This document shows positions 2,929 through 56,179 of a stretch of 64,000 bases of DNA, piece after piece; positions within the stretch are counted from its first letter, which is position 1, and the number at the start of each line of letters is the position of its first letter. Source of the DNA: Batillaria attramentaria (Eukaryota; Mollusca; Gastropoda; Batillariidae); NCBI GenBank assembly GCA_018292915.2, contig JACVVK020000018.1, positions 1,652,001-1,716,000 of the forward strand, given 5' to 3'. Both the position numbers and the translations under genes were made by a program. Below the pieces are notes generated by a model. It ran no database searches and was not told where the DNA came from. It saw only the letters and a list, made by a program, of their open reading frames with translations.

Positions 2929-3006
2929 GGGGAGGGGAGATGTAGCATAATACTTTGCTATTAACTAAAATGACTATACATGAAATACACAGTACTTCTG
3001 TCAGAC

Positions 3007-3196
3007 CTATAGTGGTAACGACAGTGAAAGAATAGAGAAGTGCTCCCGTGAATGTCCACAAGGAGCGTCCGTTGTGGTCAAACCCTCTTCTTGCTTCAGT
3101 GGACAGCTCGTCAGTCATGCTCTTGAGAATCGAAAGAGCCTTTCCTTCGAACGTGGTCGAGTCTGAACCCATGGACGTGCAAGAATTTGTCAGTTG
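3007..3196 (-). CDS. K3 exon 2: cap and pore loop 1
   Basis: Acceptor CTTTTTTGACAG|CAA CTG, donor ATAG|GTCTGA. 63 codons plus one base, the same phases as all other P1 exons in the array. Confidence 0.9.
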
Positions 3197-6150
3197 CTGT
3201 CAAAAAAGGAGGAAAGTAAAATTGGATCGAAAGGCAAAACATACGAAGTCATGTCCGGTGAGAAGAAAATGCCACCAAACTGTCAAAAGGGTCGAATCCG
3301 GAGGGTGGTGTGGGTGTTTGGGGGTTTTAACGTCCTTTTCCACCATGGGTGGGTGATATCAAAGACGGGGCAACGAGAAAAAGGCCAGCATAAATATTCG
3401 GCCCCAGTCAGGATTCGAACTCACGACCCGAGCATTGAGAGTCCAACGCTCTACCATTCGGCTATCCCGGCTCCCGATCGAATCCGGAGAGAATGGGTAC
3501 AAAGGGTGCAAGGGTAGGACGCAGCGGCAAGCGGGTTCTTGGGCTTCAAATGGCATCGCGTTTGGTCGCATTCTGGCTGTTTGGTTTCTTTGTGTAATGC
3601 TTTGTTTGTTTGTTTTTCTCCCTCATATGTTTGTTCTGCGACCAGATTCTGATATACAGCATCGTCTCCGTTGGCTGCCGAGCTACCACTGACCGCAGAA
3701 CAGAATCTTAATGCCCGCGGACGGACTAGAAGTAACCATTAACGCTGATCGGTATGTTTCGGTATATCGGCTAAAAGGTCCCCACGCTCAGTTGCATGCA
3801 CTCCTTAGCATCATTGTCCACTGGGCCACCAGGGATACTGTTACAAGTGGTGGCAGTCAGAGTCACTCAACAGGTTTGTTGTCCATTCAGCTCATGCAGT
3901 GTAAAGTGCGTACGTTGGGGGGGGGGGGGGGGGGGGCGTCTCTATAGTCCTGCATGTCGATTGACCTACGGTCCTAAACTGACTCAGTCTCGTCAGTCCT
4001 ACGTATCACTCGTCCTACGTGTCGATAGTCCTACACTTTCGAGACTTCCTTCTGATTTTAACAGGAGCGACTATAGTCCTACTGGTGGCGATGGACACCG
4101 CTTGGCAGTCCTACGTTATTGTTCTGATTCTTTCCTTGTTCTTGGGTTCTTTATCGAATCATTGTATGAGCGCTTTCTGTCTGTCTGTCTGTCTGTTGCC
4201 CACAGGCCCGTAGCCACGCCCTTTGGTAACCCGTGGTAACCCATCTGTTCTTTTTATGTCTTTGTCAAGCATCGACACAGATATACAGAAGAGAGACGTT
4301 CTGGCAGGGAACCCTCGAACAGTGGGACAGACAGTTCCACACGTGTGATACTGATTTGTCTGCTGGAGTATTCGAATCCCGGCTGGGGCCAAATATTTGT
4401 ACTGGCCTCTTTCTCGTTGCCCCGTCTTTGATATCACCCTTGCGTGGTGGAAAAGGGTTTTTAACTCCCAAGCACCCACCCACCCCACCCTGCCGGAGTA
4501 TTGGTGCACTGTGGCTGTCTGCACTGACATGTCAATCAGAATCTTGCCAAATGTCAATCATAAACTACAAAAGGAAAAGGAATCGTGTTACGCGCAGCAT
4601 ACCTTTGCTCTGAGTTGCTGAATCTTTGAAATGGAGTTTATATCGTTCGACCATTCGTATCCTATGAACATAAAGGCTCCAAGAACGCAGTAGAACGCGA
4701 CAAAGACAGTAAGACCAAACGTTGATGCGAGGAAGATCAGGAACTTCTGACAACAAACACGCAATTTCTCATAAGTTGTCTGGGTTTCCGGTTCCATCCA
4801 GACTATAGACTGCGCCCTCTTGAACATATTCTGAGTGGGCGCGTTTGTATTGACGTCACACCTGACATCACCAGCACTCTTCTCTCTGTCTGACGGGAAG
4901 CCATATTTAGCCAGGGTGGTGAGCGGAATGAGCTCACGTGACCACATGGTATCTGATGGTATGACGTCCATGCGTCCGTCCAAGATTTCAGAGACGTCAC
5001 AGTACATGTAGCAATAATGCCCTCTCCGGTCTTTCCTGAAGTCATAGAAATCAGTGCTCCAGTCTCTCCTGTAGTTATACACGTCTCTGTTCCAACACCT
5101 GCGGACGTTTCTTCTCCTTCGGCCGACATCCGCTACACTTCCACAAGTTTGTCTGGTGGTGTCAAACAGCTTACCATTCCTCCACACGTAGATTTCAACA
5201 TCATCATGTGCACCTCTGTTTCCACTGCTGACAGTAATTCTCCTGCCCCTGCCGCCACCATCGTCCACGTTTATGCCTTCGTTGTCATCTCCAGCATACT
5301 TGCGTTTACCACGGCTCTCACTGCTCTTGCCTTTGGTGCAACCACTAGTTCCATCATCTGAATTACCATCTTTAGTACCATCGCCCCTTTCCCTGTCTGT
5401 ATCCATGTCCATGTTATCCGTTCTACTGCCACCGTCAGCATTTCTCGTATCCCTGCATTCTTTGTCATCACACAGGGCTCGCTCTTTCATGTCATACGGT
5501 GCATTTCTGTCCTCACTACGACCATCTGCATACATCTCCTTCGTACTGTTTTGTGTTCCTCTTTCTCTACTGCCGCCAGTCATACTTCCGTCTACACTTT
5601 CACTGGTCGATTCACCATCAGTCTCCCAGTCTTTACTGAGACACATAACAGCTCTGTCTTTACTGCCACCAGTCGCTTCTCTGTCTTCACCACCACCATT
5701 AGCAGCCCTGTCTTTGCTGGCGCCAGTCGCACTTTGGTCCTGACTGCCACCGTTAGCACCCCTGTCTTTACTGCGAGCATTAGCAGCCCTGCCACCGCCC
5801 ACAGCCCTGTCTTTACTGACACAATTAACAGCCCAAACTTTACTGCCACATGTCGAACCCACGTCTCCCCAACGGCCATCCACAGTCCCGTACGTGGAAC
5901 CATCGTCTGTCGCAATCCTCTTATGATGGCCGCCCTCCTCCATTTTCCTGTGAGTGTCGTCCTTCGCATTTCTGACTTTGCTGCAACCATCCTCTTCTCG
6001 GCCTTCAGTACCGTCTCCCGCGCACTTGTCTTGAGTACCTCCATCTTCGTTTTCGCCAGGACTACTGCCATCAGCATCCCCTTCCTTTCCGACGCCTGTA
6101 CTTTCTATTACAGCGAATGCCACATCGGGCGGACTTGACATTGAACTCAT
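3007..6150 (-). CDS. K3: K2P potassium channel, first two exons only (3' end outside window)
   Basis: Exons 6150-4603 (516 codons, donor AAAG|GTATGC, phase 0) and 3196-3007 (190 nt, phase 1 out). The N-terminus is unusually long for a K2P (about 469 residues before TM1). It is Asp/Gly/Ser/Lys-rich with a 9-residue repeat (about 103-180), then an Arg/Tyr/Asp-rich stretch, NTNA (434-437), a short spacer and TM1 (about 470-498, containing STFGLTVFVAFYCVLGAFMF). Exon 2 gives the cap and SLWTFTGALLYSFTVVTTIG. No exon starting with the expected GT TAT/TAC GG (rest of GYG) was found between 3006 and 1, so TM2, TM3, P2 and TM4 are presumed to lie beyond the window. The ATG at 6150 has an AACAATGA context; the frame stays open to an upstream ATG at 6513 through a His/Pro-rich stretch I regard as non-coding. 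Confidence 0.82.
3305..3476 (-). mobile_element. SINE-A, tRNA-headed (K3 intron 1)
   Basis: The minus strand reads GGGAGCCGGGATAGCCGAAT, box A TAGCCGAATGGTAGAGCG, box B GTTCGAATCC, then CTTTTTCTCGTTGCCCCGTC and GGACGTTAAAACCCCCAAAC. Confidence 0.82.
3940..4130. repeat. Related TAGTCCTAC repeat in K3 intron 1
   Basis: Several irregular copies of GTCGATAGTCCTAC including CTCGTCAGTCCTACGTAT, which also occurs at about 28152. Preceded by a G20 run at 3917-3936. Confidence 0.65.
4360..4495 (+). mobile_element. SINE-A, 5'-degenerate copy
   Basis: TTCGAATCCCGGCTGGGGCC, CTTTCTCGTTGCCCCGTCTT and the (CACC)n-type tail are present. Confidence 0.78.
4603..6150 (-). CDS. K3 exon 1: long repetitive N-terminus and TM1
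   Basis: The open frame is conserved in layout with K1 exon 1 and K2 exon 1: low-complexity hydrophilic region, D-V-N-T-N-A, TM1, then a phase-0 donor 16-20 residues after TM1. This shared layout supports coding despite the repetitive composition. Confidence 0.85.
5611..5844 (-). repeat. 9-residue (27-bp) coding repeat in K3 N-terminus
   Basis: Imperfect units of the type S-K-D-R-A-x-N-G-G (residues about 103-180): SKDRGANGG, SQDQSATGA, SKDRAANGG, GEDREATGG and relatives. Charged and disordered by composition. Confidence 0.75.
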
Positions 6151-6962
6151 TGTTCTCAACGCTGACCGGTGAAGCTGGTTCTGGCTCGCTTCACTTTGAA
6201 CAAACGCTGTGGAGGGAAAGACCAGACAAAGAAATGAAAACGGATTGCTAGAGACGGTAGAAGCTACAAACACAGTTACAAACACACAGAACAGTAAGGC
6301 TTTGGCGTTCCCTTTCTTGTGCACTGATATGGTTTCAAGATTACGCAATACTTCTAACACGCCAGGGGAGGTTGGAGGAGGGTGGGAGTAGTGACGGGGT
6401 GGATGGTGGTTGTGATGGTGGTGGTGGTGGTGGTGTGTGTGTGTGCGTGTGGATGGGGGAGGTTTTGAGGATGAAAAAACAAACAAACAAACAAACAACA
6501 ACAGCAGCTGCATTTACGGCTGGAACACCAAAAGATCAACATTGTTTTGGAAGAACAAACAGACCAAAATCATTGAATTTCTACAGATATAACCATTAAT
6601 AACGACTCAACAGACTTCTGCTTTATTTGGCCGTGTTCTTACAGCTGAAAATCGTGTTGAGCTGTTTTATTACCTATTACAGTTTGACAGTTAACTAACC
6701 TTTGCAACGATGATGCAAGTAGCACCCAAACAGGCTGACTTGCACATGCAGCAAAACGATTTCACAAGACAAAGAGACGAAGGCCAGCCTAGATTACTCC
6801 ATTTGGCGTAGAAGCTACGACACAATACTAACGCCAAAAGCATCATAGTTGTGATGTAATCGCGGCGTAGTTTCGTGAGGGGCGTCACAAATATGACGCA
6901 AAAAGGCTTGCCATGAAAATGACGTCAAAATCTCTTTGGCGATCTTTGGTCCTGTCAAGTTT

Positions 6963-8440: not shown

Positions 8441-8736
8441 TTAATGAACGGTTGCCGACAATAATGGTGTCTAAATACAGCAGTTCAATGATCTCCAGCC
8501 TCACACTTAATTTTACGTACCTCAAACGGTTTGTTTTCAAGGAATCGAATTATCAAGGAATCAATGTTTTTTGTTTTTCTTTTCACTCAGAACACAACTT
8601 TCACCCGTAGATGACACACAGTACATGGTGTTGCCAGATGCCTATACTACTTTCAAAACTACTCTTGTCAAAATCTGCTTATGGGCTGTCAAAGGGACGA
8701 ACAACCTAAAGTGTTAACAGGCTTGGCTTTGGGTTT

Positions 8737-15351
<6,615 letters not shown>

Positions 15352-19385: not shown

Positions 19386-20464
19386 CTAAACCCTTGATCC
19401 TTGATACCCAACCTTAGGGTGGTATTTCCAGCCATACAGCATTGGGGCTGCATCGTAGTAAAACTCTTCAAACCACGTGGGTACATCAGGATCCGACAGA
19501 TTCGAGGGTAAGGATGTGGTGCTAGGAGCTGCTTTTGGTTGGGGGATTTGCGGAACGGATGTGCTTGCAGATGGTTGCTGTTGTACCACCAAGACCGGCT
19601 CAGGGGGAGGGGGAGGTGGAGGAGGGGGAGGGGGCGCAGCAGCGACGACAACTTGGGGAGGAGGTTCTTCCGGGGGCGGAGCAGCGACGACAACCTGGGG
19701 TTGATGTACTACTGGCTGAGGCGGCGGTGGCGGAGGCAGCTGCTGCTGCTGCGGTGGAGGCGGCGGCGGCGCCTGAGTGATGACAACTGGAGGAGGAGGC
19801 GCACGCTGCACAGGCGCCGCTTGCTGAACGACTACAGGCTCGGCCCTATGAGTTCCGCCCTGGCCGTAGTCCCCTCTGGTGTCGCCATCGCGAGAGTATC
19901 CATCATAATACTCGTCGCCTTCTCCTGCCCAATCAGCTTGCTGTGCACCTTTCTGTTTGGTTCCTCCGCCCATGCCACAGCACTCTTTCAAGCAGCCGAA
20001 AATATCCTGGCAGGACTCTTGCATGAGGTCAAACATCGTGGCTAGTAAAGCCAGGCCAAAGAATATGTAGGCCGCACACAGCACTTCTCTCTCGGCGGCA
20101 TCAGGCTGAAAACCTATTTCGCCGAAGCCAGGCACCAAGTCACCGAAGCCCACGGTGGAAAGAGTAATGAAGCAGTAGTAGAATGCCGCATTGTACGACC
20201 AGTTCTCAAGTTCCATAAACAAAACTGCGCCTAGGTTAAGGTAGATTGCCATCAGAACTAGACATAACCAGACTGGCACGCGGGCTTTTTCCTCTTTTGG
20301 GAAACAAGCACCGAAGATAACTCTGGCGTACACGAACCGGATCAGGCGCGCCACGTAGAATCCGATGTTCGCCAGACATAGGAGACAGAGCGGAATTCCG
20401 ATGACCCCGTAGATTATGCATGCCACTCGCCCGCCTGTTGCACTCGGTACCAAATTCCCGTAAC
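19386..20464 (-). CDS. K1 exon 5: TM2 to C-terminus of module B
   Basis: The exon begins GTGTGCAG|GT TAC GGG AAT and runs to a TAG at 19386-19388 (359 codons including stop). It encodes TM2, TM3, LSTVGFGDLVPGF, TM4, then a 210-residue cytoplasmic tail. The tail is acidic and Gly/Tyr-rich at 860-893, then holds several polyproline blocks (about 907-974). Such blocks are typical ligands for SH3, WW or EVH1 domains. The chain ends in GSRV, which fits a class I PDZ ligand (S/T-x-hydrophobic). The polyproline blocks are encoded by GGC/GGA-type triplet runs on the plus strand. Confidence 0.92.
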
Positions 20465-22193
20465 CTGCACACCAGAAGGGGGGGAGGAGGGGGGGGGGGG
20501 GGTCACAGTCTTGTATAGTACATCTTGTTATCCAGTCGCCAGAGCTTTTAGGGAATATGTTTTTTGACGACCTGTGATTTCGGTACACAATTATTGGAAA
20601 TGGAAACAGATGTTTGAAAACCTGTTACCTAACTTTTTATCAACCATGGATATTAACCTGAAACAGCTGACGACCTCGGCACAAGTGAAAATTTGTGCGA
20701 AAATGCGAGCTGGAAAAAAGTATCGAAATGAGCCTAAGATACACCTGCCGAGAACCTTAAAGTGACAGTGAGGTGAAATGTAGTCATGTTCAGTAATTGA
20801 CGTGTACTGCCAAAAACTTCATCAGACAGTGGGGAAAAGAGTGACGGCAGTGAAGGACGCCAGAGTGTTCTTTTGGAATTCTTACATACCTTGAAAACGG
20901 ATTGTCGGGTTAAAAAAAAAAGCAGTGAAAATATCGATTTCACTTACGCCGATAAGAAACATAAGACAGAGAACACTGACTGTTATAAAATGTATTAGGT
21001 CACAACTTCCTGAATAACCTTTTCTCTGCATTAGGTCTACAAAAAGTTATAGTCAAAAATCGTTGGCGACTGAGTTACCAAACGCGCCATAAATGTGCCC
21101 GTAGGTAATAGTCGAGGTTAGGACTTTTTAGCCCTGGGTTAGAGTCTAACCTCGAACTGAACTAGCTCTAGGGTTAAATTTTCTGTTGTTTTTTGTTTTA
21201 AATGAAAAAGCGGGTCCATTCCAGCAAGGTGCCTAAGCCGTTATAGAAGGATTTTTGCCTTTCTTTCTTCATTTCCTTTTTTTAAATTTAATTTTGTTAT
21301 TGGATTCTTTTGTCCTAGTCTGGGTTCGGCCCGTAGCTGTGGGTTAAATTAACCTCGACTTTTACATACGGCCCTGGCTTTTACATTTTCACTGAATATC
21401 AAGGCACGTTTGGAAAAAAAAAAGTAAGTGGCAGGGTGCAACAGTTAACACAATTCTTCTATATTCTATAGGAAGCTGGTGTTTCAAAGAATTCATGGGT
21501 GGGGGTCCTTTTAAAGATACATCGTGTAGGATGGACAACTCTTACTGTGGCAAACAAGTGTTTCGCACACACGCCGCCAGTGCTCGGTCAGTGGTCTGCC
21601 CGGTCTATTTTAGAGCTCTGAGCTCTGTACACCTGTCATGTTGCCATCCACCCCATGTGAACTGTACGCCCTGCCCAAATTTAGTACGCATCGAGTACGG
21701 CGGCAGCCATTAGGATTCGTCTGCTCCACACAAAACTGGTGACGACACTTCAGACGGTCACCCGGATGTGCCTGTCGACACTGGATTTCACGATGTTGTC
21801 AGTACGTATTGCCTCTTAGTTGTGCCAGTACTTCAGACACGTGCTAGGCAAGAAAATCGCCAGGACCTATAACTCTTTTTGACACCTTCCTGTGCTCTCC
21901 CTCCGTAAGAAAAAAAAATCATTTTCATCCATAGATCTCCCACGGCCCATGACAGAGGATCAGTGGCAGCAGTAGTAGTTGTAGTAGTAGTAATAAAAAA
22001 TAATGATAATAATAATGGATACTTATAAAGCGCTTATTCTCAGTCAGCTCTAAACGCGTACAAGACTAAAAAGACTAAAAAAAACTTTAAAAAACCCTAA
22101 AAACTAAAAGAAATAAAAGAACTAAAACCAGGAACTAAAGAAAGCCAGTTCAGGAACGTAACAATGGCAAAGCAATGCATGAAAATTCTGCAC

Positions 22194-22261
<68 letters not shown>

Positions 22262-25200
22262 GGTCTGTCATTCTCTCGTGCCTGTTGCTGAGCTGACCGA
22301 ACAGGTACATTAACATGTTTTAACGAAAGTTTTGAAGCTGGGGGCTGAGTCGGTATGCCTAATGTTTTCGGAAGCGTGTTCCAGAGGGTGGGTCCTTGAT
22401 ACGAAAACGACCGCTGCCCGTATGTCTTTGTTCTGACTCTTGGACACAAAGGTCACGTGAGTCAGCTGAGGACCGGAGCTGTCTGGCTGGTGTGTACAGG
22501 GTTAGTAAAATGACCAGCTATGCAGGGCCAGTACCAGCAAAGGAGTTGTGGCACAGAGGCATCACTTTGAATGCGGGACTGCACAGGCAGCCAGTGGAGA
22601 GGATGGGAGAGATGTGATAAGATTTCCTGGTTTTCATCACGACATTGGCAGCATCAGTTGTTTTGAATTTTCTGAAGCTTGCGAAGGAGATATTTCGGAG
22701 GATGGGAGAGATGTGATGAGATTTCCTGGTTTTCACATCACAGGATGGGCAGCATTGTTTTCAACTTTCCGAAGCTTGCAAAGGAGATATTTCGGACAGC
22801 CAGTAGTCCGATTCAGCCGACTCAGGATCGCTGAGTCAGATTCCTACATTCACGAAGGCTGTTTGGAGCATTGTGACGCGGCGGGGATTCTGACTGTGTG
22901 TCGGTTGGACGGCAACTTGGGTTGGAATCAAAGGGGGTGACAACTATAACATCCTACCGCGACAGTGTAAGTCGCTGTTCGTTTTCTGTGTCGCCCGACA
23001 TGTCCGCAAAGACTGACATAATAGGTGTGGGAAATCCGAGACAACGAAAGAGGACTGTACTGTTTACTGAATGGCGGCTGGTACAAATTTTTCACCGCAA
23101 GATCGTAAATCAACGCTTGAAGCACTCATCTACCCGCTCGTAAACAACTTTTCAACATTAAGATGTATTCCTTTTCAGATTCTTCTTCGTTTCAGTTTTG
23201 CTTTGTTGCTCCCTGCTGCACAGACTTGAACGCGCCACGGACAGAAGATTTCCAACCGTGTTTTCCCGATTGTGTGCTGCAAACTCTGGTATATAGAGTT
23301 TGTAGCATACTAACTATAGCAGCAGCAACACCATCAGCAGCCGTTAGCAACAAAACCAACATGAATAGCAACACGGCACAAGTTTCAATAACAGCAACAA
23401 CAATCCAACAGCAGCAAAACGACAACAGCAACACGACAGGATATTTGCTCTCAAAACGTTACCTATTGTTGTGACAATGGTCATGGAAAACATCATCGCG
23501 TTTACGAAAGTCCATGTGCTTTTGCCCTGGTCGTCAAAAGAGGGGTTGTTCCTTAAGCCAAGAATGCCGTCCTTCAACTCTTCATTCAGATACCTACTAA
23601 TGTTTTGTATCTCATCTGCTGTTTGATTTTCACACGCTTTTCCAATATCCTGCACAACAGATAGCCATACATATCGCTGGCTTTCATTCCAAGGAATATT
23701 GCAGTCACAATTTGTATAATCAATTATTCCCTCTTCTAACCCAGTGGGTAAAGTTTGTCTTGACTCGACCTGGTAAAACTACATCACCCGGTTGTGATCA
23801 ACAACCATACTCTCCCCTGCTTGACGAATTTTCTTATCAGTCAAATTTTAACCAGAACCAACAAGATGGGTATAGATCGTCCCCTCTCCAAATCCCTGCA
23901 AACGAATAGCTATAGTACATGAAATACTATAACCGTGGAAATTGTATGCGTGGTGTATTATAGGCTAAGAAAAAAACTGAACAAGGTAGAACAAATTTGA
24001 TCCTAACTTTTTATTACAGATTTCGGTAGAGCATAGGCCCCTAATGCTGTGGTGGTCTCCGTGAATTTTTTCTCCGTCCGCGTCACCGTTAAAAACGACC
24101 GTTTATCTTGCCATTTTCACTATATGAGCCCTATAAATGGGCTTTTGAGGGTGTGCACAAAGTATGCGTGTTTGCGGGGACAGAAATGCGCAGAATTCCG
24201 GTCTAAACACTGTTACTGTTAGAAAAGACATGCGTTGCTGACATACTGAAATTTCACACCAATCAGAATGACGCTTCCTGGATAATTGCGGCTATTAGTT
24301 TGGCCGTTGATTCAAAGGGCCCTGTAAACCGACTGCATTTGATGCTTGTGCACTTGGCAGGTCACTGCAGGTGACATGTATCGCGGAAAACATTTACGAA
24401 CATTGAACAGTTTAGTCAGAAAACGCTTCTTTGATGCTGCGAAGTTCCCATGTCGTCGCATGTGCAGAAGTATGGAATATGATATCCAAGTGAGCACTTT
24501 TTTCGGTAGGGATATTTTGGGGGTGTACTTATTAAAGTAGTTGCTGCGTTGTGAGTGGTGAATGGGTTTTCTCAAAGAATAGTGCAGACGCAAGAATAGC
24601 ATCCAAGTTGCGTCATATCGAAAGATCTTTGAAATCGCTTTGGTACTTTGGTCACAAACAGCCATCGAAAGTGCAATCTGTTTAATAATGACGGAATACT
24701 TGTAATGATGGGAGTAAGAACACTTAATTAACCGTCATCTATAAGCAATGAATCTCTCATACAAGTTCCAGAAGATAATTCTGAAACACCGAGCATGTGC
24801 CCGAATATGTGCATCATATTATATTCCTTTTCGGAAACACATGTTATCACAGTAACCATTCAAGTGTCCTTACTCCCATCATTACGAGTATTCCGTCATT
24901 ATGAAACAGATTTTTAGTATGTCAGCAACGCATGTCTTTTCTAACAGTAAGTTCAGTGTTTAGACCGGAATTCTGCACATTTCTGTCCCAGCAAACACGC
25001 ATACTTTGATGCTTGTGCACTTGGCAGGTCACTGCAGGTGACATGTATCGCGGAAAACATTTACGAACATTGAACACCCTTTACGAACCAGGGAGCTGAA
25101 AAGCGGGGGAGGGGGGGGGGGCGTTCAGATGCTGCACAGACAAAAACCTTTCCGAACCAGTGAGCCAGTAAAACGAAGGACGTTGCCCGAAGAAAGTGAA

Positions 25201-27673
25201 AAGCGGGGGTGGGGGTGGGGTGGGGGGGCTTTCACTAACTCGTGCACCAAGCCAATGATAAACGACCTTGACCGATTAGCCACGTGACTGGGGTTAGGCT
25301 TTCACATGCTGCGCAGACGAAAACCTTTACGAACCAGGGAGCCACTGGCCACTGAAAGGTAGGACGTTGCCCCACAGAAAGTGAAAAGTGTGTGTGTGTG
25401 TGGGGGGGGGGGGGATCAGATGCTGCGCAGACAAAAACCCTTTACGAACCAGGGAGCCACTGAAAGGTAGGACGTTGCCCAAAGAAAGTGAAAAGCGGGG
25501 GGGGGGGGGGGGGGGGGGGGGGGGGTCAGATGCTGCAAGGAAGGACGTTGCCCAAAGAAAGTGAAAAGCGAGGGGGGGGGGGAGTGATAATCAGACGACT
25601 TTCTGCCAGGTTTTTTGGGTTTTTTTTGGACTTTCTGCCAGGTCGTTTTGATATTTCATGCAACGGCTAAACTGAGTTCTCTGTTGGGTGGGATGAGGGA
25701 GAGAGCAGAAAAAGGGGGAGGGGGTAGGGGAAGGGGGGGCAAGACCATGGCTTTGCCCCCCCCCCCCCCTCTTGCCATAGTCACCTGATTTTCCGGGGGG
25801 GGGGGGGGCAAAAAGATACTCTTGCCCCCCCCCCCCCTGCTTGGGTACAGGGGGGGGGGGCAGCTCCCCCCCCCCCGGTTCCGGCGCCCCTGCTCTGACG
25901 TCACGCGTTGGAGTTCACTGTTTCTTGCTGTCTCATGAGAGTTTTACAAACCTACGTCAATGACTGAGCGTGATTACCTTTGCGTCATTGTCACTTGAGG
26001 ATTTCCCCGAGGTATATTTTAGGTTAATTTCGATACTCCACATGTTGAAAGCTCGCTTTTTCACTGAAAAGTCCACTTACGCCGAGAAGAAATAATAATT
26101 TAAAAAATCAACAACTTAGAAACCCGACTGTCATGAAATAGATTAGGTCACTAGGCCAGGATCAACTTGTCTGTAATAGGTATACGAAAATGACCGACCC
26201 CCGTAGTGTAGTGGTTAGCACTTCGGACCATGGACCGGGAGACACGGCTTCGAGTCCCAGCCGAGGTAAGCGGGATTTTGCCTACCTAGGTCGGCTCTCG
26301 TTCGGGTGACCCATGAGTGTTCGGGAAGACAGGATACTCGCGCTTACGTATAATTATTACAAACACGTGTAAGTGGGATTTAGGATACGGCAAAGCGATT
26401 TTGCCCATCCACGTCTGTTCTTTGTTTAACTAATTTGTCCGCATAAGTCAAACAAACACCTCACGGATAAGTCAAACTGCCACATGAAGTTCGACGGAAG
26501 CCTGTTTGACACAAATGTATCCGAATGTAACTAGATATAATACCTGCAACATGCATTGAAATTTTTGGATCATCGGCTCCCCTTCTTTCGTCGGTGTCTC
26601 CAGGCGCTGGAATAGAAAGGCTCCTCCCACACAGTACAAGCCCACCAGCATCGGCAGTCCCAAAGTCGACGCCACGCAGACGCAAAAGTTCTGCGCAAAA
26701 TCATCGTCAGGAGAACTTCGCGCGTTTGTGTTAATATCTGTCGCTGTCGGATCCAGGCGAATTCCGCTGTTGTTAGAGAAGTCTCCGTGCCTTATCTGAC
26801 TGACTGGCCGAACTGACTTGAGCCCTAAATTAAGGGCTAATTCTCTTAAATGGTGTGCACCAGCCTTTGACATAAGCTGAAAAGCCATGACATTTAGAGA
26901 GAGGCCAATGAGTAGATACGCTACGCACAAAACCTGCATGTCTGTACCTGTAAGAGTAAAAGCTACATTGTAAGAGCCTTGCCAGCTTGAATCATTGGCG
27001 AGTGGCGTCGTGATGTTAGGACCAGTGTAAGTTCTGTTGTAAGAGAAACCAGTGGTGCTTGTCGGATCAAATCCAGGCACTAAGTCTCCAAAACCGATGG
27101 TAGACAGAGTTACGAAGCAGAAGTACAAAGCCTCCTCGAAGCTCCATCCCTCCACATGTTTGAACAGAAGTGCGCCCAGATAAATATATAGGCCTAGTAG
27201 GACCACGGTTATGAAGACCGGCACCTCTGCATCGCCTTTTTTGTAACAGCAGTTTTTGGCGAGAAAGTGATACACTGCTCTCACCAGGCTTGCAAAGCAG
27301 CTGCCAATGTTCGTCAGACCGGTTAGTGTGAGGGGGATGCCAAACACCGCGTAGATCAAACACATCACTCTCCCCCAACGTGTGCTCGGCACTATATTAC
27401 CATAACCTGCAAAGAGCAAGGGAAACTCAAAAAATCCTCATTGACACCACCCATCCAGCCCATCAGGGGATTCCAACCCGGTGGTACGGGATCAGCAGGA
27501 GGGAGGGGGTCGGGGTGGGGGTGGAGGTGGGGGGGGGGGGGGTGGGGGGGGGGGGGGGGGCTGAACCAAGAAACCAAACCCACAGGGCAGACATTTTCTT
27601 TCTATATCTTCGACAGACCATTAAAGTTTTAGAGTGCGTGCGTGCGTGTGTGCGTGCGTGCGTGCGTGCGTGC

Positions 27674-27737
<64 letters not shown>

Positions 27738-30700
27738 AAATTTCATGCGCTGCATTGTCATTGTAACGTTTTAACTTTTAATTTCCCCAGGACGGTTGAA
27801 TAAAGTATTCTTATCTTATCTTATCTCATCTAATACGCAGTGCTGTTATGTTCCCAAAGACCTGAAAAACAACTGCAAGGACTCTAGTTCTGCAGCCAGT
27901 GTATACGGACCCGCCTGATATACTTCACTTCACATTAGTAGACACGTTATATCGGCTCAGCCGGGGGCGTCTCTACATGGTCCTGCGTGTCAAAAGTCTT
28001 GTGCGCCAATAATCCCACGGTCGATAGTCCTACGTGTCGATAGTCCGAAATTTGTGTCGATGGTCCGAAGTTTTTTTGGTTTTTTTTATATATACAGTAT
28101 AGTCCTATGCTCAATAGTCTTAAATGTGGATAGTCCTAAACATCGATAGTCTCGTCAGTCCTACGTATTAGTCCTCCGTATCGATTGTCCTACTGGAAAA
28201 AGGAGCACAGGCCCATCGACACGTAGGACTAATGATACGTAGCCGGACTGACGAGACTTCGAGTAAGCGTAGGACAATACTGAATAGACAATCCGCAGGA
28301 CTAACAAGCAATCTAGTCAATCGACAGGTAGGACTATCGACGCAGGACTAGGCGCGTAGGACTATCAACTCGTGGGACTATCAACGCGTAGGACTATCGA
28401 CGCGGAGGACTATCGACGCGTAGGACTATCGACAGGTAGCACTATCGACGCGTAGGTCTATCGACACGTAGGCCTACCGACACGTAGGACTGTCGGCGCG
28501 AAGGGCTCGTAGGACAGAGGTCACGTAGGACTAGCGACACGCACCCGATCAACCGCCAAAGAAGAATGAGAAACTATATCAAGACTATAAAGAGAGTAGA
28601 CGAACCGGTGTACGTAGGACTCAGACAAGACAGTTTGCTTTCAAAGTATCTCGGCAGAGTCCTCAGAAATAAAGCATCCCCTGACATCATTGCTTTTTTG
28701 ATTCCGTTTATATCTTGTCGAATATCTATGTACGCAGATCAGCCAGAGTTAAAAGGTTTGACTTGTTGCACAACAATGCATTTAAACTGTACCTCAGTAT
28801 GTACCTGTCATATTATTTGACTTTAGAAATTTTTTGCCAGAGTCCAAAATGTGCGAATTTCGAAAGGGAGAAACGTGACTCGGACACAAAACGTGGTTCT
28901 TTCAGACAAATCCTGCACCAGATAGGTCATATTTTTTATCATGGTTGATGGCAAATTGTGTCTTGACTTTGTGTGAATAGTTTCGCCTCTCCACGGTTGA
29001 CCGTGTTTTGCAACATTGCCTCCTAATGTTTATCGACCCTTCCCTGTATAGTATTCCAGTTTTCGAGTTTAGCGTCGCCGACCTAGAGTCCTCGATGAGA
29101 GCAGAAGTTTTCTGGTGGTGTTTGAGAACCTCTGTGTAAACCTGACCTATAGTGGTGACCAGGGAAACAGTAAACAGCAGCGCGTTTTGAAAGGTCCATG
29201 TAGAGTTGCCCAATGTGTCGTAGGCGTACGTTGATTCCGTTGTTTTGAGCAAGTATTCCGAGAAAGTGTGAATGGATCTGTTTATTACACCAATCTGTTG
29301 CTTTTCGACTGGCAACCTCTCGCTTTCGTTCTCTGTGACTCCGCATAGCTTTATCGTATGCTGCAAAAAAAAATTGTTTATGTTTTTCAATACATCATAT
29401 GCAACATTTTGCAAGATGTTACGTGTGGAGAAATGTTGAAGAGGGTGTGTGCACGAGAGAAGCTTGTATGTGCGAAGCTTGAGAGTGAAGTGCAACACCA
29501 GAGAAGTGCTGTAATAAACTCCACCCGGTTATAACTTTTCTACGCGCTCACGAGTCTTTTTGTGAGTGAAAGAGACCTTAAGCAGTCTACAAGAACTCGC
29601 TACATGAGGAGTGTTCGCCTGTGTGTCATCGTTAGCTCCGATAAGACGACGGACTCTCCAAACATATCTCCACACGTAACACAAGAACACTCTGTAAACT
29701 AGACTTAATAAACCATCCTAACGGCCTCAGCAAAAACGTGGACGCGGGGTGTGTGCGTAGTTTAGCGTTGGCTCTAAGAGGACAGTTTCGGCACGAAGCG
29801 ACAAGAAAACCAACATTGTATGGCTTCAACGGCATCGAGCATGTGAAATGCACGACGTGAGGTATACATACACGCACCGACATGCTGACATATCAAGTGT
29901 TTACGAACCGTTCCAAAGTGCCCGCCATTTTAAGTGGCTCTCAAATCTTTAAGATGTAGCGATGTTAAAGTCTGTGATTACAGGCCCAGGGCCCGCACGT
30001 AAAAGTCGGGGTTAGGGAGTTTAGCCCCGGGTTAGAGTCTAACCTCGAACTAAACTAGCTCTAGGGTTAACTTTTCTGTTGTTCTCTGAAGCGGGTCCAT
30101 TCCAGCAAGGTGCCTATGCCGTTATAGAAGGATTTTTGTCTTTCTTTCTTCGCTTCCTTGTTTATTTAATTTTGTTTTGTTTGGGTTTCTTTTGTCCTAG
30201 TCTGGGTTAGGCCCGTAGCCGTGGGTTAAATTAACCTCGAGTTTTACATACGGGCCTTGGCTTTTAAACTAATCCTGTGCCTCAAGCCATGAACACTGTA
30301 CACACGTGGTGCTAAAGCATTTGCGGAAGTAAGCTCTATGCTGACATCGTGGTGCATGCCAGGGTGCCGCAACAAGCTGAAGCTGGGTGTTTTTGCGAAG
30401 AAGTGAGGCAAAAGTAACGCGAGCAGATTTGGATGAAGTGGCTTTCTGGCCTAAACAGAAAGTAGACTAGCATTACTCCGGTGAGGCCTTAGCAGAATGG
30501 AGACATTCAAATTTGTTGAACTCCTGTTAGGTGCCTGCCCTTAAATGGTCTCTGCATGAAAATATTTGTTTCTCGATTGAAGCATTTTTAGAGGTGACTA
30601 TGATGCCATTAGCGAGTATATAGGCACTTTGAGACCTCGTGCATTTGTGTTCTTTGTCCTGTCATGAGCCAAAGGCTGTCCGGTGTTCTTGATACGCCGA

Positions 30701-31713
30701 AGAGATGAGGGTGGAATAAAAAAAAATTATAGGGGTTTCCCAAGTTCAGATACAGGTCATTTTGAAGTGAAGCAAACTGACATGAACATTTAGTTTGTAT
30801 GTCTCTCTTGTTTCTAACAAACAAACAAACAAACCCAGGTTTCTAAAGCTACAAACAAACAAACAAACATACAAACAAACAAACAAACAAACAAACATGA
30901 AAAACTTGTGGTTCCACATACCATCAATGATTCATAGCGTATTTGCTCGACCGATTTTGTACGCGCGTTGAGATCATGTCCTTCCAAAGCCTTGAAAATG
31001 AGGGCCCCTATCATACAGTACATAACCACGACGGTTGCCAGCCCCACAGTGGACATGACGGCTAGAAAAGCCCTTCTCAATAAATCGGCGACCCCGGGCT
31101 CGGGCCCAGCTTGTCCTGACGCGTTCGTGTTCACATCGTCTGTGTTTCGATCAGCATTTCTGTTCTCATCATGGCAGACAGCAGTACCGGGGGTGCTGGT
31201 ATCTGCGTCGTGACCGGTCGTACCTGTTGTAATGGCTGTAACATCGCCTGTGGTACGACGCCAGGTTCCAATGTCGCCAGGAAAAGCTGTGCCGTGAATG
31301 ATTCCAGTATCAACTGCGGATGCTATGAGGCCGTCTGTGTTTCCGCTGATTGCATAAGGTAGCTTGTCATCCTTCATGGTGTCACCTGCTCTACCCTCTC
31401 CGAATTTTGTGGAGTATTTTTTATTGCTTCTCCGTTTACAGAAATTGCCGTTACTTCGACCCCCGTCCTTAACTAACTTTAGATCGTCGCATTCTGCCTT
31501 TTCTTGTGAACTCTTGTTCCTTCGTCTGGTAAGACGGCCGACGCCATCTTTGTCGTCAGAGAGGCTGTTCTTGTTACCTTTTGTCGTCTTTGTCCTGGTG
31601 CCAGCAATAGCCAGGTCCTTGATAGTTTCTGCATGTCCAGTAGACTGCGGTGCCGTCTCATCCAGGCCAAACACGCAGCCGACGTCTTCAAACGACGCTA
31701 GCGGCAGGTCCAT
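19386..31713 (-). CDS. K1: fused double K2P potassium channel (8 TM, 4 pore loops)
   Basis: Predicted exons on the minus strand: 31713-30922, 29360-29147, 27406-26544, 23649-23463, 20464-19386. The joined frame is 3135 nt (1044 aa) with phases 0, 1, 0, 1 at the four junctions. Module A: N-terminal region 1-215, TM1 about 216-245, pore 1 with TTIGYGN (GYG 336-338), TM2 about 347-380, TM3 about 397-418, pore 2 with STIGFGD (GFG 440-442), TM4 about 490-514. A linker of about 60 residues leads straight into module B: TM1 about 575-604, GYG 686-688, TM2 697-730, TM3 748-769, GFG 791-793, TM4 813-834. A 210-residue proline-rich tail follows. K2P subunits normally carry 4 TM and 2 pores and dimerise. 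Here one chain would carry both halves of a channel, which should allow an intramolecular pseudo-dimer (inference). I chose the ATG at 31713 because the upstream in-frame codons include a stop. The polyadenylation site is unknown; an AATAAA lies about 0.8 kb downstream near 18574. Confidence 0.86.
21095..21385. mobile_element. MITE family M1, copy 2 (K1 intron 4)
   Basis: Same body and ends as the copy at 29985-30275, in the same orientation, with a longer T/A-rich middle. Confidence 0.75.
22198..22260. repeat. (CA)n microsatellite in K1 intron 4
   Basis: About 31 CA units. Confidence 0.95.
22300..22460 (-). mobile_element. LINE ORF2 C-terminal fragment in K1 intron 4
   Basis: The minus strand reads KTYGQRSFSYQGPTLWNTLP, a common LINE ORF2 C-terminal motif, adjacent to a (CA)n tract. 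Confidence 0.6.
22600..22797. repeat. 98-bp direct duplication in K1 intron 4
   Basis: GGATGGGAGAGATGTGAT...GGAGATATTTCGG occurs twice head to tail. Confidence 0.8.
23463..23649 (-). CDS. K1 exon 4: cap and pore loop 1 of module B
   Basis: The acceptor is TGTTGTGCAG|GAT ATT and the donor ATAG|GTAACG, in the same phases (0 in, 1 out) as the other P1 exons. It encodes N-Q-T and N-I-S sequons in the cap and STWTFVNAMMFSMTIVTTIG. Length 187 nt. Confidence 0.92.
24161..25006. mobile_element. Nested inverted-repeat element in K1 intron 3
   Basis: Outer arms 24161-24247 and 24916-25006 and inner arms 24677-24725 and 24863-24910 are inverted copies. A 70-bp segment at 24337-24410 recurs directly at 25007-25077. 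Confidence 0.75.
25080..25880. repeat. G-run-rich direct repeats in K1 intron 3
   Basis: Four to five copies of a roughly 110-bp unit (TTTACGAACCAGGGAGCCAC, GGACGTTGCCC, AAAGTGAAAAGC, G run), followed by alternating G and C runs at 25735-25876. Confidence 0.8.
26190..26345 (+). mobile_element. SINE-T head (tRNA-like)
   Basis: GTAGTGTAGTGGTTAGCACT (box A) and GGCTTCGAGTCCC (box B). The acceptor-stem ends do not pair, so it is not a functional tRNA. Related body sequence at 13878-13985. Confidence 0.72.
26544..27406 (-). CDS. K1 exon 3: fusion exon, TM2-TM3-P2-TM4 of module A plus TM1 of module B
   Basis: The exon starts at GCAG|GT TAT GGT AAT (completing GYGN) and runs 863 nt without a stop to TTGCAG|GTATTA (phase 0). 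It encodes GRVMCLIYAVFGIPLTLTGL (TM2), TM3, LSTIGFGDLVPGF (pore 2), a long glycosylatable outer loop (sequons at 459, 466, 474), TM4, a linker with DINTNA (561-564), then ASTLGLPMLVGLYCVGGAFL, a second K2P TM1. In the sibling genes these two halves sit in separate terminal and first exons. Here one exon joins them, and this is the direct evidence for the fusion. Confidence 0.93.
27636..27735. repeat. (GCGT)n-(GT)n microsatellite in K1 intron 2
   Basis: GCGTGCGT units followed by about 28 GT units; preceded by a G-rich tract at 27515-27560. Confidence 0.95.
27960..28545. repeat. Inverted satellite of a GTAGGACTATCGACGC unit (K1 intron 2)
   Basis: To about 28200 the unit reads GTCGATAGTCCTAC on the plus strand. 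From about 28205 it flips to GTAGGACTATCGAC, about 20 irregular copies in all, making a large interrupted palindrome. Confidence 0.8.
29147..29360 (-). CDS. K1 exon 2: extracellular cap and pore loop 1 of module A
   Basis: The acceptor is a T9 tract followed by GCAG (exon starts CAT ACG). The donor ATAG|GTCAGG falls after the first base of the selectivity-filter glycine codon (phase 1). It encodes a cap region with N-E-S and N-R-S sequons, then STWTFQNALLFTVSLVTTIG, the K2P pore-1 signature. Length is 214 nt, 71 codons plus one base. Confidence 0.92.
29985..30275. mobile_element. MITE family M1, copy 1 (K1 intron 1)
   Basis: Inverted ends of the type CGTAAAAGTCGGGGTTAG and CTCGAGTTTTACATACGGGC. 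The body (CTAACCTCGAACTAAACTAG, GCGGGTCCATTCCAGCAAGG) matches copy 2. Confidence 0.75.
30345..30600. repeat. Dispersed repeat R1, partial copy
   Basis: Shares GGCCTAAACAGAAAGTAGAC and GGAGACATTCAAAT with 33640-34010, in K1 intron 1. Confidence 0.65.
30922..31713 (-). CDS. K1 exon 1: N-terminus and TM1 of module A
   Basis: 264 codons ending in phase 0 at ATG|GTATGT. A hydrophilic, Thr/Asp/Lys-rich cytoplasmic region holds DVNTNA (NTNA 195-198). It is followed by a hydrophobic helix containing STVGLATVVVMYCMIGALIF, typical of K2P TM1. The frame stays open upstream only to a stop just before 31737, so the first in-frame ATG (31713) is used. Confidence 0.88.
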
Positions 31714-35930: not shown

Positions 35931-36563
35931 TTAATAATTTTCTTTCACTCTTTTCTTTCTCGACTTTTCAGCCATCCCGCCCGTCTTGCAGTCCCTGCAG
36001 CAGATCCAGATGAGATTTGGCAACACGACACTCATCAGTGCCAACACGACGACCAGCGCCACACTGTCCCTGTCGCTGCCTTCGCTGAACTTGGTACGTC
36101 TGTACAGCGACTGGGCCTTGCGGTCCACGAGCAGGTTGTCACGGATGTGCAGAGCACGGCGAAAAGCCGAAGACATGTTCTGGGGCCTGCTGTAGAACCA
36201 CTCGCACGATCGACACGGACAGAGATGTTTACCGGACCAGCGAACAGACGCAGGTGGTTTTCTCGCAATGGACCGGGAGGCCTCTGTGGTGCGGGCCGTT
36301 GCTGCGTCTGCTACTGTGGTGTGGGCCGTTTCTGTGTCTGCTGCTGTGGTTTGGGTCCTCGCTGTGTCTGCTACTGTGGTGCTGGCCGTTGCTGTGTGTC
36401 CTACTGTGGTGTGGGCCGTTGCTGTGCCGGTGTCGGTGTCCGCTTTTGGAGACGCAGTGGGCTGGCTGGTTTCCTTTGTACTCGGAGAGGTTTGGCCGTC
36501 TTCTGTGGTTATGGCAGTCGTTGCCATAGACTCGGTGCTCTGGAAGCACAAGGAGGAAGATGC
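35931..36563 (-). CDS. F1 exon 7: Thr-rich stalk, TM and tail
   Basis: Acceptor GAATTTTTCAG|GCA TCT, TAA at 35931-35933. The 10-residue repeats of type TATAHTTVAD are followed by the conserved CPCRSCEWFYSRPQNM segment, a TM helix and a lysine-rich tail. The 3' half is almost identical to F2 exon 7. Confidence 0.87.
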   Translation of the reverse strand, partial: ASSSLCFQSTESMATTAITTEDGQTSPSTKETSQPTASPKADTDTGTATAHTTVGHTATASTTVADTARTQTTAADTETAHTTVADAATARTTEASRSIARKPPASVRWSGKHLCPCRSCEWFYSRPQNMSSAFRRALHIRDNLLVDRKAQSLYRRTKFSEGSDRDSVALVVVLALMSVVLPNLIWICCRDCKTGGMAEKSRKKRVKENY

Positions 36564-36684
36564 CTGAAAAATTCGAAAATAAAAATGGTCGTGTTATCTG
36601 ATTCGGTGTAGATCCGCTGTTTATACGGGTTTTAGTTTGGTCGTGATGAAATGAGTTTCAAACTTAACTTGTTAAAATGTACGC

Positions 36685-40665: not shown

Positions 40666-41519
40666 ACAAACAAACAACCCCCCCAAAAAAAACAACAACA
40701 AAAAACACAACAACAACAAACAACAAAAACAACAACAACAAAAACAACAAACAAAAAACCTTAACAGGTTAAAAAAAAAACCTAAGAAACAAAGAACAAA
40801 GGAAAAACAAAAACAAAACGAACATAACAAACACAACAAAATCAGGAAAGAAACAAAAAACACAAAACAAACCCATGGGTGTGTGAGTTTTTCTGAAAAA
40901 AACAACAACAGCTATTTTGTCTTGTTTCGCCAACCATACATGCCTTCTCGTCGGTTCAACCCGGCGAGGTATGACGAAAGATTGCCCTTCAAACTGTACA
41001 GTCTGTAGATACTCACAGACCACGCACATACGTTCGTAAAAGGCTGGTGAGCATCACTCTACATTACCTGAAACTGTTCAAGATGCTCCTGCAGGACGTC
41101 TCCGTTGTAATAATTTTGCCCCGCGTGCGTGATGCGGTTCACGACGGTAAACTGAAGGTCCAGAGATACGGTCGTGGTGACACCTGGTTCTGTGGCAACG
41201 ACGAGGAGGAAACAGGTGTAGTCTGAGCACTGCGTGGCCACAAGATACTCTGTGGACAGGGCAGTGGTGGGCAGCACGAAGAAAGCCCCGACCGAGGAGG
41301 AGCTACCTCGCGTAGAAATGTACTCAAACCAACTCATGGCCTGAAATAGGAAACGCGAGGAACAGTCATACAGACAGAAATAAATAGCAATTTCCTTGTT
41401 GCGTCCTTTCTTGCTTGTCCTTGTCGTTTTTGTGCTTCTTGGGAGACGGGGATGGTTGGGGGAAAGGGAGGGGGGCGAAAGCGGGGTGGAGGGGGGAGGG
41501 GTGACAAAGCTGTGTATTT

Positions 41520-41583
<64 letters not shown>

Positions 41584-43390
41584 CACAACACTTGATCATC
41601 TGAAAAAAAAACCTTACCCCTCTGAAACAATTGAAAACAAGGCAAATCAAAGGAAAACAAAATCCCCCCCCCCCCCCAACACGCACCCCGAAAAAAACTA
41701 AAGGCAACCCAAAACCAAACCAAACAAACAAAAAACAAGAAGAAGAAGAAAAAGAACAACAACAACAACAACGACAAAAACCAATGGCAACAAGGAACCA
41801 TAAAACGAAAACACCACCACACATCACCAACAACAGCAAAACTGCTGCGGTGACGACCGACCTGCACCACAACAGCTTTGTCACAAGAGACCCAAACTCC
41901 CTTGTCCTCCACAATGCCCCCCGTGGCCATTGCCTGTGACGTAACAAGCAGCGCCCGAGACTCCCCTGGCTGAAGCGCTACGGTCTGCTGTGGCTGTACC
42001 GCCATCATGAGAGGCATAGACAGCGTGACGGTGACCTGGTCCTCCTGCGGGTTGGTGACGATGACGTAGTGCTCAAGAGTCCCCCCTGACCTCGGAGAGT
42101 GCTCGGGGAACGGGAAGATGAAATTGTTTGCCTGCGTCTCGGGTATTTCTGAAATAAATTGGTTGCTGACACTGATCACTAGAAGGCTGAATTATTCCGA
42201 TTCCGATTTCGTTGGGTTTTTTTTTTTTTCTTGTTTTTTTTTTTTGTTTTTTTTTGGTTTGTTTGGGTTTGTTTGGTTTTTTTTTGCCCCAACTCTTTGC
42301 CAGCTTCAGTGTTCCTCCCAGGTCCTGGGTGGAATCCACCACGGCTCGAAAGCTGGGGCAAGTTTTATTATGCATGATAATGGCCATGATGATGATGGTA
42401 AGATGATGCAATGGAGGTCCGTGTGGTTTGGGACTGCGGGACACGGCCGCATTCATCGCTTCCTGTTATAAATGTCCCGGCATTAACCAGATCCGGGAAC
42501 TACGGCACCTGCGGTTCCAGCCCTGTAATCATCCACATCATAAGATGTGTCATACCATTAAGGGAAGCACTTACAAAGTCGCACACGTGAAAGGGGTGAA
42601 TCTCGGCTGTGTGGCAACAGCCTCTCCACTGGGCCCATAGCACACCCGCTCTGGGCAGGAGCCGAACAAGGTAGGAAAAATCCCACTTGCCTCGGATCGG
42701 ACTCGAACCTGGGTCTCCGGTCCATGGTCCGAAGTGCTAACCACTACACTACGGGGCCCGGTTATTCCGATTCTTGTTTGTATCTGTATATCCGTATCGC
42801 ATCGTTTCGTATCTTAAGGCAAAATGTCTTTGGAAGCAGCTTTAGAAACATGAGAAAAAATCCATTAATCAACAGTTTTGTTGTTTATTTACTTGTTTTA
42901 TTTACAAACAAGATCACTCAAGTTTTGGTAAGCATTACACCAATACCCTTATTGCCAGTCATCAAATTTCGTGGATGTAGCTTGAAAATTGACGTTCGAA
43001 TGAAAGTGTAGGTGCAATTGCACCCACGACGTACGGCGAAGGTTAAATTAAACTGTAAACAACAACAACAACAAAAAATGACAACTAAACGCACAACCGT
43101 AAAGAACTTGTATTCGAGTCAATCACATTAATACATTACCACATTAATTATCATTATGATATCATCACACAAGGCAAGCTTAAGTTACACATACGATAGG
43201 TTTCAGTGACGGTAAATGTCCCTACCTATCCGGCAATACAATGAGGCAACAATGAATGCGTCGTCAACAAAATTTTATAAGTGACCAACAAGGTCAGGCT
43301 ATACTAACCCCGTTAAGAAAGCTACTCACCAAAAAGGAGGAGGTAAGGACACACGGCAATCAAACAAATGTTTCTCCGAAGTAGATCCAT
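35931..43390 (-). CDS. F1: IgGFc-binding-protein-like type I membrane protein
   Basis: Predicted exons: 43390-43330, 42148-41862, 41340-41068, 39867-39574, 38871-38688, 37191-36941, 36563-35931. They join to 1983 nt (660 aa) with frame closure. Signal peptide about 1-20 (LIAVCPYLLLF core). The ectodomain (about 21-450) resembles the IgGFc-binding protein N-terminal domain, with an HYVIVTNPQ segment, an SRALLVTSQAMA strand, GAFFVLPTTALSTEYLVATQ and GDLDGIELVLIAETWQDGCL. A Thr/Ala stalk of five 10-residue repeats (about 497-546) follows. Then come a juxtamembrane CPCRSC segment, a TM helix about 617-638 and a short basic tail ending KENY. By family analogy it is a mucosal or haemocyte surface recognition molecule; no VWD or TIL domains are seen, unlike mammalian FCGBP. 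Function is inferred only. A CAG acceptor just before the ATG implies a non-coding 5' exon. It is a tandem paralogue of F2. Confidence 0.84.
36270..36440 (-). repeat. 30-bp coding repeat, F1 stalk
   Basis: Five decamers of type T-A-T-A-H-T-T-V-A-D, Thr/Ala-rich and suited to O-glycosylation. Confidence 0.8.
36685..36929. repeat. (GT)n and (CA)n pair in F1 last intron
   Basis: 36685-36759 GT and 36873-36929 CA, inverted relative to each other, directly beside the exon 6 donor. Confidence 0.95.
36941..37191 (-). CDS. F1 exon 6: ectodomain
   Basis: 251 nt, identical in length to F2 exon 6. Acceptor AATGTGGAG|AT CTG (weak pyrimidine tract), donor TCAAAG|GTAGGT. Encodes QDGCLTAGDGSVLDTSRLTG and TCGPVSGFLCGYD. 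Confidence 0.85.
37253..37430 (+). mobile_element. SINE-A copy (F1 intron 5)
   Basis: Head GGATAATCTAGCGGTGGAGT, box-B-like GAGATCCAATCC, then GTTCTCGTTGCCCCGTCTTT and a CACCCACCCACC tail. Confidence 0.75.
37520..37700 (+). mobile_element. SINE-A copy (F1 intron 5)
   Basis: Head AGCCGAATGGTAGACCGTTG, box B GAGTTTGAATCTC, then TTTTTCTCGTTGCCCCGTC and the CACCCACCCACC tail; in the same orientation as its neighbour. Confidence 0.77.
37782..38329. mobile_element. Fold-back MITE with arms of about 188 bp, in F1 intron 5
   Basis: Arms 37782-37970 and 38143-38329 are near-perfect reverse complements (for example GATCAGCGGCGCAAATTCCC and its complement at 38289-38308), around a loop of about 170 bp. 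Confidence 0.85.
38395..38545. repeat. Short minisatellite of GACTGGTCATGA type
   Basis: Irregular copies of GATCATGAACGACTGGTCAT in F1 intron 5 next to the fold-back element. Confidence 0.6.
38688..38871 (-). CDS. F1 exon 5: ectodomain
   Basis: Acceptor GAAAACAG|AAG AGG, donor CTGTTAG|GTTGGT (phase 1). Encodes VSLIADGPVVVVQVSDGRIP and GNPALLFPRP. Confidence 0.82.
39003..39290 (+). mobile_element. LINE 3' fragment in F1 intron 4
   Basis: Degenerate frame reading LKSFGERCFRVF followed by frameshifted remains of the usual WNSLP...FK..LKTHLF tail, then a 3' end of the CGCTGTATAAATTAAATAAT type. Confidence 0.6.
39574..39867 (-). CDS. F1 exon 4: ectodomain
   Basis: Acceptor GCACTCCAG|GTT CTC, donor CGTGAG|GTATGT. 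98 codons uninterrupted. Encodes CERCDMSGTLINSNYPVTVV and GESKYLLAKLRASGGTYED. Its uninterrupted state is the reference for the split F2 counterpart. Confidence 0.88.
41068..41340 (-). CDS. F1 exon 3: ectodomain
   Basis: Acceptor CCTATTTCAG|GCC ATG, donor TTTCAG|GTAATG. 91 codons. Encodes GAFFVLPTTALSTEYLVATQ and an NYYNGDVLQ segment shared with F2. Confidence 0.88.
41521..41590. repeat. (CA)n microsatellite in F1 intron 2
   Basis: About 30 CA units. Confidence 0.95.
41862..42148 (-). CDS. F1 exon 2: ectodomain
   Basis: Acceptor TTTATTTCAG|AA ATA, donor GTGCAG|GTCGGT. 287 nt, the same length as F2 exon 2. Contains NNFIFPFPEHSP and VEDKGVWVSCDKAVVVQ, typical of the IgGFc-binding N-terminal family. 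Confidence 0.88.
42362..42765 (-). mobile_element. SINE-T, full-length copy (F1 intron 1)
   Basis: Minus strand: GTAGTGTAGTGGTTAGCACT, AGGTTCGAGTCCGATC, a 300-bp body and a (CATCAT) tail. A 3' fragment of the same family lies at 62514-62572. Confidence 0.78.
43330..43390 (-). CDS. F1 exon 1: signal peptide
   Basis: TTTTTTTCTCAG|CAGTTACA precedes the ATG. 20 codons, basic n-region MDLLRRN then a hydrophobic core, ending TTTG|GTGAGT in phase 1, matching the phase of F2 exon 1. Confidence 0.78.

Positions 43391-46316: not shown

Positions 46317-56179
<9,863 letters not shown>

Follow-up and report, generated by a model that had tools for sequence, protein, structure and literature searches.

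A gastropod gene that carries two K2P potassium channel modules in one open reading frame

K2P channels are described as subunits with four transmembrane segments and two pore loops (4TM/2P) that dimerise (PMC8396510). Can a natural gene carry two such modules in one chain? The question is raised by a locus on the minus strand of a 64,000-nucleotide window of the genome of the mud snail Batillaria attramentaria, a caenogastropod (assembly GCA_018292915.2, contig JACVVK020000018.1, positions 1,652,001 to 1,716,000). A five-exon gene had been predicted there from the DNA letters, encoding two complete modules, here called M1 and M2, with eight transmembrane (TM) segments and four pore loops. We confirm this observation; its interpretation as a covalent pseudo-heterodimer is partly supported. 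Fusion at the level of the gene is likely. That a real fused gene yields, as its most likely product, a one-chain leak K+ channel with M1 and M2 packed together is the reading we favor, with moderate confidence.

All five predicted minus-strand exons (31713-30922, 29360-29147, 27406-26544, 23769-23463 and 20464-19386) were reproduced, with GT/AG at the splice borders used for the model. The running phase after exons 1 to 4 is 0, 1, 0 and 1, and a single open frame runs across the joined exons, starting with an ATG at 31713 that has an in-frame stop upstream. With the borders as predicted the chain has 1084 aa. The features, with our preferred start of exon 4, are as follows.

30922 to 31713, minus strand: exon 1, with the ATG, a hydrophilic N-terminal tail of about 205 residues that contains a DVNTNA motif, and TM1 of M1.
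29147 to 29360, minus strand: exon 2, with the M1 cap region (cysteine at codon 6) and pore helix/filter 1.
26544 to 27406, minus strand: exon 3, the fusion exon, uninterrupted, with the rest of M1 filter 1, TM2, TM3, pore 2, TM4, the linker and M2 TM1.
26691 to 26870, minus strand: linker of 60 residues between M1 TM4 and M2 TM1, with a DINTNA motif.
23463 to 23649, minus strand: exon 4, with the M2 cap region and pore helix/filter 1; 23649 is preferred over the originally predicted 23769.
19386 to 20464, minus strand: exon 5, with M2 TM2, TM3, pore 2, TM4 and a C-terminal tail (tail uncertain).

The start of exon 4 is more likely at 23649 than at 23769, because the acceptor score is better (3.4 vs 0.5; all splice scores come from approximate matrices built on general knowledge) and because a cysteine then falls at codon 6 of the M2 pore-1 exon, as it does in M1 (HTIKLC) and in the neighbouring K2P gene K3 (QLTNSC). 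The other neighbour, K2, has a serine at this codon (KLQRVS). The deposited gene model likewise begins exon 4 at 23649. This start removes 40 residues and gives a chain of 1044 aa. In several vertebrate K2Ps, a cap cysteine bridges both subunits. The C-terminal tail of M2 is uncertain: in the predicted exon 5 it is proline-rich and continues to the stop at 19386, and the deposited model leaves exon 5 at about 19950.

The chain is made of K2P modules, though it is no classical K2P subunit, since one open frame holds two modules in place of one. Four intact K+ filters (TTIGYG, STIGFG, TTIGYG and STVGFG) lie, in the 1044-aa version, at residues 333, 437, 683 and 788, and the hydropathy peaks of TM1 to TM4 occur twice along the chain. 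Hydropathy and alignment, together with the helix order in the predicted structure, give the order TM1-cap-P1-TM2-TM3-P2-TM4 in both modules. A K2P-module profile recovered two full domains of 474 and 480 bits, high scores being expected of a profile built from M1, M2 and K2, and Pfam assigned two Ion_trans_2 stretches to translated exon 3 and two to translated exon 5. The best match in the Protein Data Bank was KCNK2 (8de7_B, 1e-28) on the M2 part, and the M1 part was matched by other K2Ps. M1 and M2 are 41% identical, and M2 and K2 44%.

The two modules meet inside exon 3. As had been proposed, this exon is stop-free from the second half of M1 filter 1 through M1 TM4, the linker and M2 TM1, and the first in-frame stop after it, at 26472, lies within the following intron, beyond M2 TM1. 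The remaining two frames of the 180-nt linker (26870-26691) contain stops. By itself the open linker is weak evidence for coding, because 1006 of 7631 overlapping same-strand non-coding stretches of its length (13%) are equally open in the frame read. Codon use was uninformative, as 62% of 236 open non-coding stretches score equal to the linker or higher. The weight of the evidence for fusion therefore lies in the two in-frame flanks, in the pre-TM1 motif within the linker and in the frame staying open as far as 26472. The sequence NTNA precedes TM1 in M1 (in exon 1), in M2 (in the linker), in K2 and in K3. The pattern [DN][VIA]NTNA, picked after the paralogue motifs had been seen, matches two of 327 collected proteins, both from Batillaria. 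Because the linker carries this motif, its second half looks like the former N-terminal tail of M2, joined to the C-terminal tail of M1. Linker hydropathy shows no peak.

M1 and M2 are packed together in two AlphaFold2 models, whose confidence is low to moderate. Structure aligners match the models to K2P subunits across both modules and to the one-chain pores of NaV, CaV and NALCN, an arrangement read from VIA-align rows that give first and last aligned residues only; Foldseek alone returned K2P chains, mostly with poor root-mean-square deviation. The models thus suggest an intramolecular pseudodimer of M1 and M2, in line with the pairing originally proposed; the fixed stoichiometry, a spanning transcript and K+ conduction are inferred. 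The one-chain channel is the best reading, and it rests on prediction. In the simplest account, a deletion between two tandem neighbours would have removed the M1 stop together with the 5' part of M2, so that the last exon of the M1 copy continued in frame into the exon with M2 TM1. The product would be one chain of about 1044-1084 aa with eight TM segments and four pore loops, its termini and linker being cytosolic if the K2P plan holds. M1 and M2 would pack on each other as separate subunits do in an ordinary K2P, and the resulting leak K+ channel would have an asymmetric filter and contain M1 and M2 in fixed proportion.

Close relatives of both modules lie in the same window.

14731 to 14979, minus strand: K2 pre-TM1 tail (NANTNA) and TM1 exon; 5' limit approximate.
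13340 to 13548, minus strand: K2 pore-1 exon; 3' limit approximate.
12226 to 12384, minus strand: K2 TM2 exon; limits approximate.
8660 to 9114, minus strand: K2 TM3, pore 2, TM4 and stop; limits approximate.
4603 to 6294, minus strand: K3 long N-terminal tail (DVNTNA) and TM1; 5' limit approximate.
2990 to 3196, minus strand: K3 pore-1 exon; 3' limit approximate.

As predicted, K2 has one module, which ends at its own stop. For K3, TM1 and pore 1 were found within the 64-kb window and the remainder was not found there. M1 and M2 each have TM2 to TM4 within one exon, and in K2 an additional intron separates TM2 from TM3. The 58-module tree unites M1, M2 and K2 with one partial Batillaria copy in a clade (97/95), and the 28-row tree unites M1, M2 and K2 (94/97). 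This grouping supports the predicted local fusion of close paralogues in a tandem K2P array. The duplications may predate Batillaria, as neither tree contains another caenogastropod. The fusion itself may be young, as the 118 matches listed, drawn from candidates of about 600 aa or more and capped at those with most words in common, include no fused orthologue of a named caenogastropod other than Batillaria. Further Batillaria K2P copies, P0003 (BaRGS_00005040) and P0176 (BaRGS_016802), resemble K2 and K3; in their deposited models, parts of several modules are combined.

About 32 extra extracellular residues precede TM4 in M1 (about 26948-27067, minus strand) and end at a strong acceptor-like site, 26947, with a score of 6.7. 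An intron from 27284, the strongest upstream donor-like site (4.7), to 26947 was considered and rejected. It would excise TM3 and pore 2, and since it removes 337 bases and breaks the frame, exon 3 is kept whole, as in the deposited model.

Rival accounts of the locus have to be weighed. The best database match of the window, Batillaria attramentaria BaRGS_00005046 (P0001), is a model that spans the fusion exon, yet after M2 it joins 19269-19144, 13551-13339 and 12384-12241, entering the pore-1 and TM2 exons of K2. Taken literally, it describes a longer read-through chain of M1-M2 plus K2 exons. However, it omits the K2 TM1 exon (near 14979-14731) and stops mid-module as a partial record, so that it looks like an over-merged prediction, and the open frame of exon 5 ends at a stop of its own, at 19386. 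Read-through appears the least probable of the alternatives, and improbable as such. Because of the apparent over-merge, P0001 is weak transcript evidence and no proof of a spanning cDNA. The annotation pipeline, as outlined in PMC10382545, combined Augustus, Trinity transcripts and protein homology by EVidenceModeler. If the join were an assembly artefact, it would stem from sequence that was collapsed or deleted, the two genes being separate in the snail itself. In favor of this, the region is a tandem array, and the same source mentions that haplotig purging and Pilon polishing were needed. It also describes a PacBio long-read assembly, and the join is in frame, stop-free and retains the pre-TM1 motif of the paralogues; an artefact is nearly as improbable as read-through.

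The locus might also make two products, M1 and M2 usually coming from separate transcripts. M1 could splice from the linker (e.g., at 26817) to an unrecognised 3' exon, or its transcript could retain intron 3 and end there, and M2 could have an internal promoter and use an in-frame ATG such as 26873; another such ATG lies at 26888. The donor-like site at 26817 scores 1.4, inside the range of the model's four donors (0.9-3.8), and 26645 scores 2.0, so donor-like sites in exon 3 are less clear-cut than the weak acceptor-like ones, of which the best in the linker scores 1.1. Splicing inside exon 3 could alter the linker, but the modules can be parted only by an additional promoter or an additional 3' end. 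Against two products, M1 has no in-frame stop before 26472, past M2 TM1, and the depositors' model spans exon 3. We consider this account unlikely, although it is the strongest of the alternatives. Somewhat less likely is that the chain is made and its modules pair between chains (M1-M1, M2-M2, or two chains per channel pair), leaving no fixed intramolecular heteromer. K2P subunits normally pair between chains in the description of PMC8396510, and cysteines in both caps would permit M1-M1 or M2-M2 bridges. However, the 60-residue linker exceeds the 10 residues of a published engineered concatemer, and both AlphaFold2 models put the modules together. The fused gene with intramolecular packing of M1 and M2 thus remains our preferred explanation.

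Is the Batillaria gene alone? Literature searches with little reach into subscription journals found no published description of a natural two-module K2P, as the original prediction had supposed. Among predicted proteins the architecture is not unique. Besides P0001, four pore motifs occur in 10 of the 327 collected proteins (P0002, P0004, P0008, P0053, P0084, P0119, P0163, P0181, P0217 and P0234), including models from Physella (P0004), Allacma (P0002), Cotesia (P0119) and Branchiostoma (P0163) and KCNK16/17-type models (P0008, P0181, P0217 and P0234). All seven that were scanned (P0002, P0004, P0053, P0084, P0119, P0163 and P0181) have four Ion_trans_2 stretches. The pore-motif pattern gave one false match, in P0119, and one true motif deviates from it in P0053 and in P0119. 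The protein searches scored the candidates sharing most words rather than every protein, and the best 120 of one alignment search omitted P0004, although P0004 was a row of the alignment searched with. With its 411 aa, P0217 cannot hold two full modules, and the KCNK16/17-type cases could be merged neighbours. P0053 (728 aa, on a 2587-base jgi contig) and P0084 (921 aa, on a 3934-base jgi contig) look protist-like by eye. The four-pore predictions are like the Batillaria gene in having four pore motifs in one predicted chain; where placed in trees, however, their modules belong to other K2P branches than M1 and M2. Moreover, the join inside a single exon is read from DNA in Batillaria, whereas the other cases are known from predicted proteins.

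In Physella acuta, the second half (B) of P0004 groups with the single-module Physella protein P0253 (100/100). P0004 and P0253 are each on a contig of 346,987 bases. A shared origin with the Physella gene was examined half for half by approximately unbiased (AU) tests, which rejected the pairing of M2 with Physella B (AU p 6.8e-7) and narrowly rejected that of M1 with Physella A (AU p 0.036; M1 has a long branch). The Physella gene is best read as a separate event. In the hexapods, the B half of Allacma fusca P0002 pairs with that of Cotesia typhae P0119 (100/99), and the two A halves are grouped with a Nicrophorus protein of one module (99/91). Such a pattern would result from an ancient fusion, or from ancient neighbours that gene predictors had merged; an old pair in hexapods, whether fused or just adjacent, seems likely.

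Elsewhere in the window, two minus-strand open frames at 35931-36593 and 46317-47009 resemble each other by eye: both have threonine-rich stretches, and their C-terminal ends are almost the same. They are probably a tandem gene duplication. Two others, at 41334-42191 and 54831-55442 (minus strand), are also alike by eye, and excerpts of both gave no Pfam match. A retroelement reverse-transcriptase fragment lies at 58255-58803, minus strand (RVT_1 1.5e-10).

How does the predicted chain compare with known channels? With animal K2Ps (KCNK / TWiK-18-like) it shares the filters, the TM/pore order, the cap region and homology to solved structures, but those have one module per chain and the Batillaria chain two. 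Fungal TOK also has eight TM segments and shows a weak sequence match to M1 TM3/pore 2. TOK, however, has two pore loops per 8-TM chain, and the Batillaria chain has four. Four-domain NaV, CaV and NALCN channels have six TM segments with a voltage sensor in each domain. As in the Batillaria chain, all their pore loops lie in one polypeptide, and the AlphaFold2 models align with them over both modules; unlike them, the Batillaria chain lacks voltage-sensor segments, has K+ filters and is built of two repeats, each with four TM segments and two pores. The two are alike in design and belong to different families.

NaV and CaV are the one-chain end point of multi-domain channel evolution. Multi-domain channels are thought to arise by rounds of intragenic duplication (PMC5150636). 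K2Ps represent the two-chain stage for K+, and a natural one-chain K2P would supply the final step that is missing. It is conceivable, at somewhat less than even chances, that animals have natural K+ channels with four pore loops in one polypeptide, a K+ counterpart of one-chain NaV/CaV, and that these arose more than once by tandem K2P fusion, each fixing a pair of non-identical subunits. If so, no case would be clearer than the Batillaria gene, since its join lies inside one exon, and the step would perhaps have been caught soon after it happened. It would also show how a heteromer is fixed in nature without assembly signals. Engineered concatemers such as TRAAK-TREK-1 (PMC12152049) likewise hold two K2P subunits in one chain, but they are laboratory-made and use a 10-residue linker, whereas the Batillaria chain is natural and its 60-residue linker apparently grew from the subunits' own tails. 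A natural one-chain K2P would also offer a native concatemer for asking whether K2P halves diverge once they are bound together.
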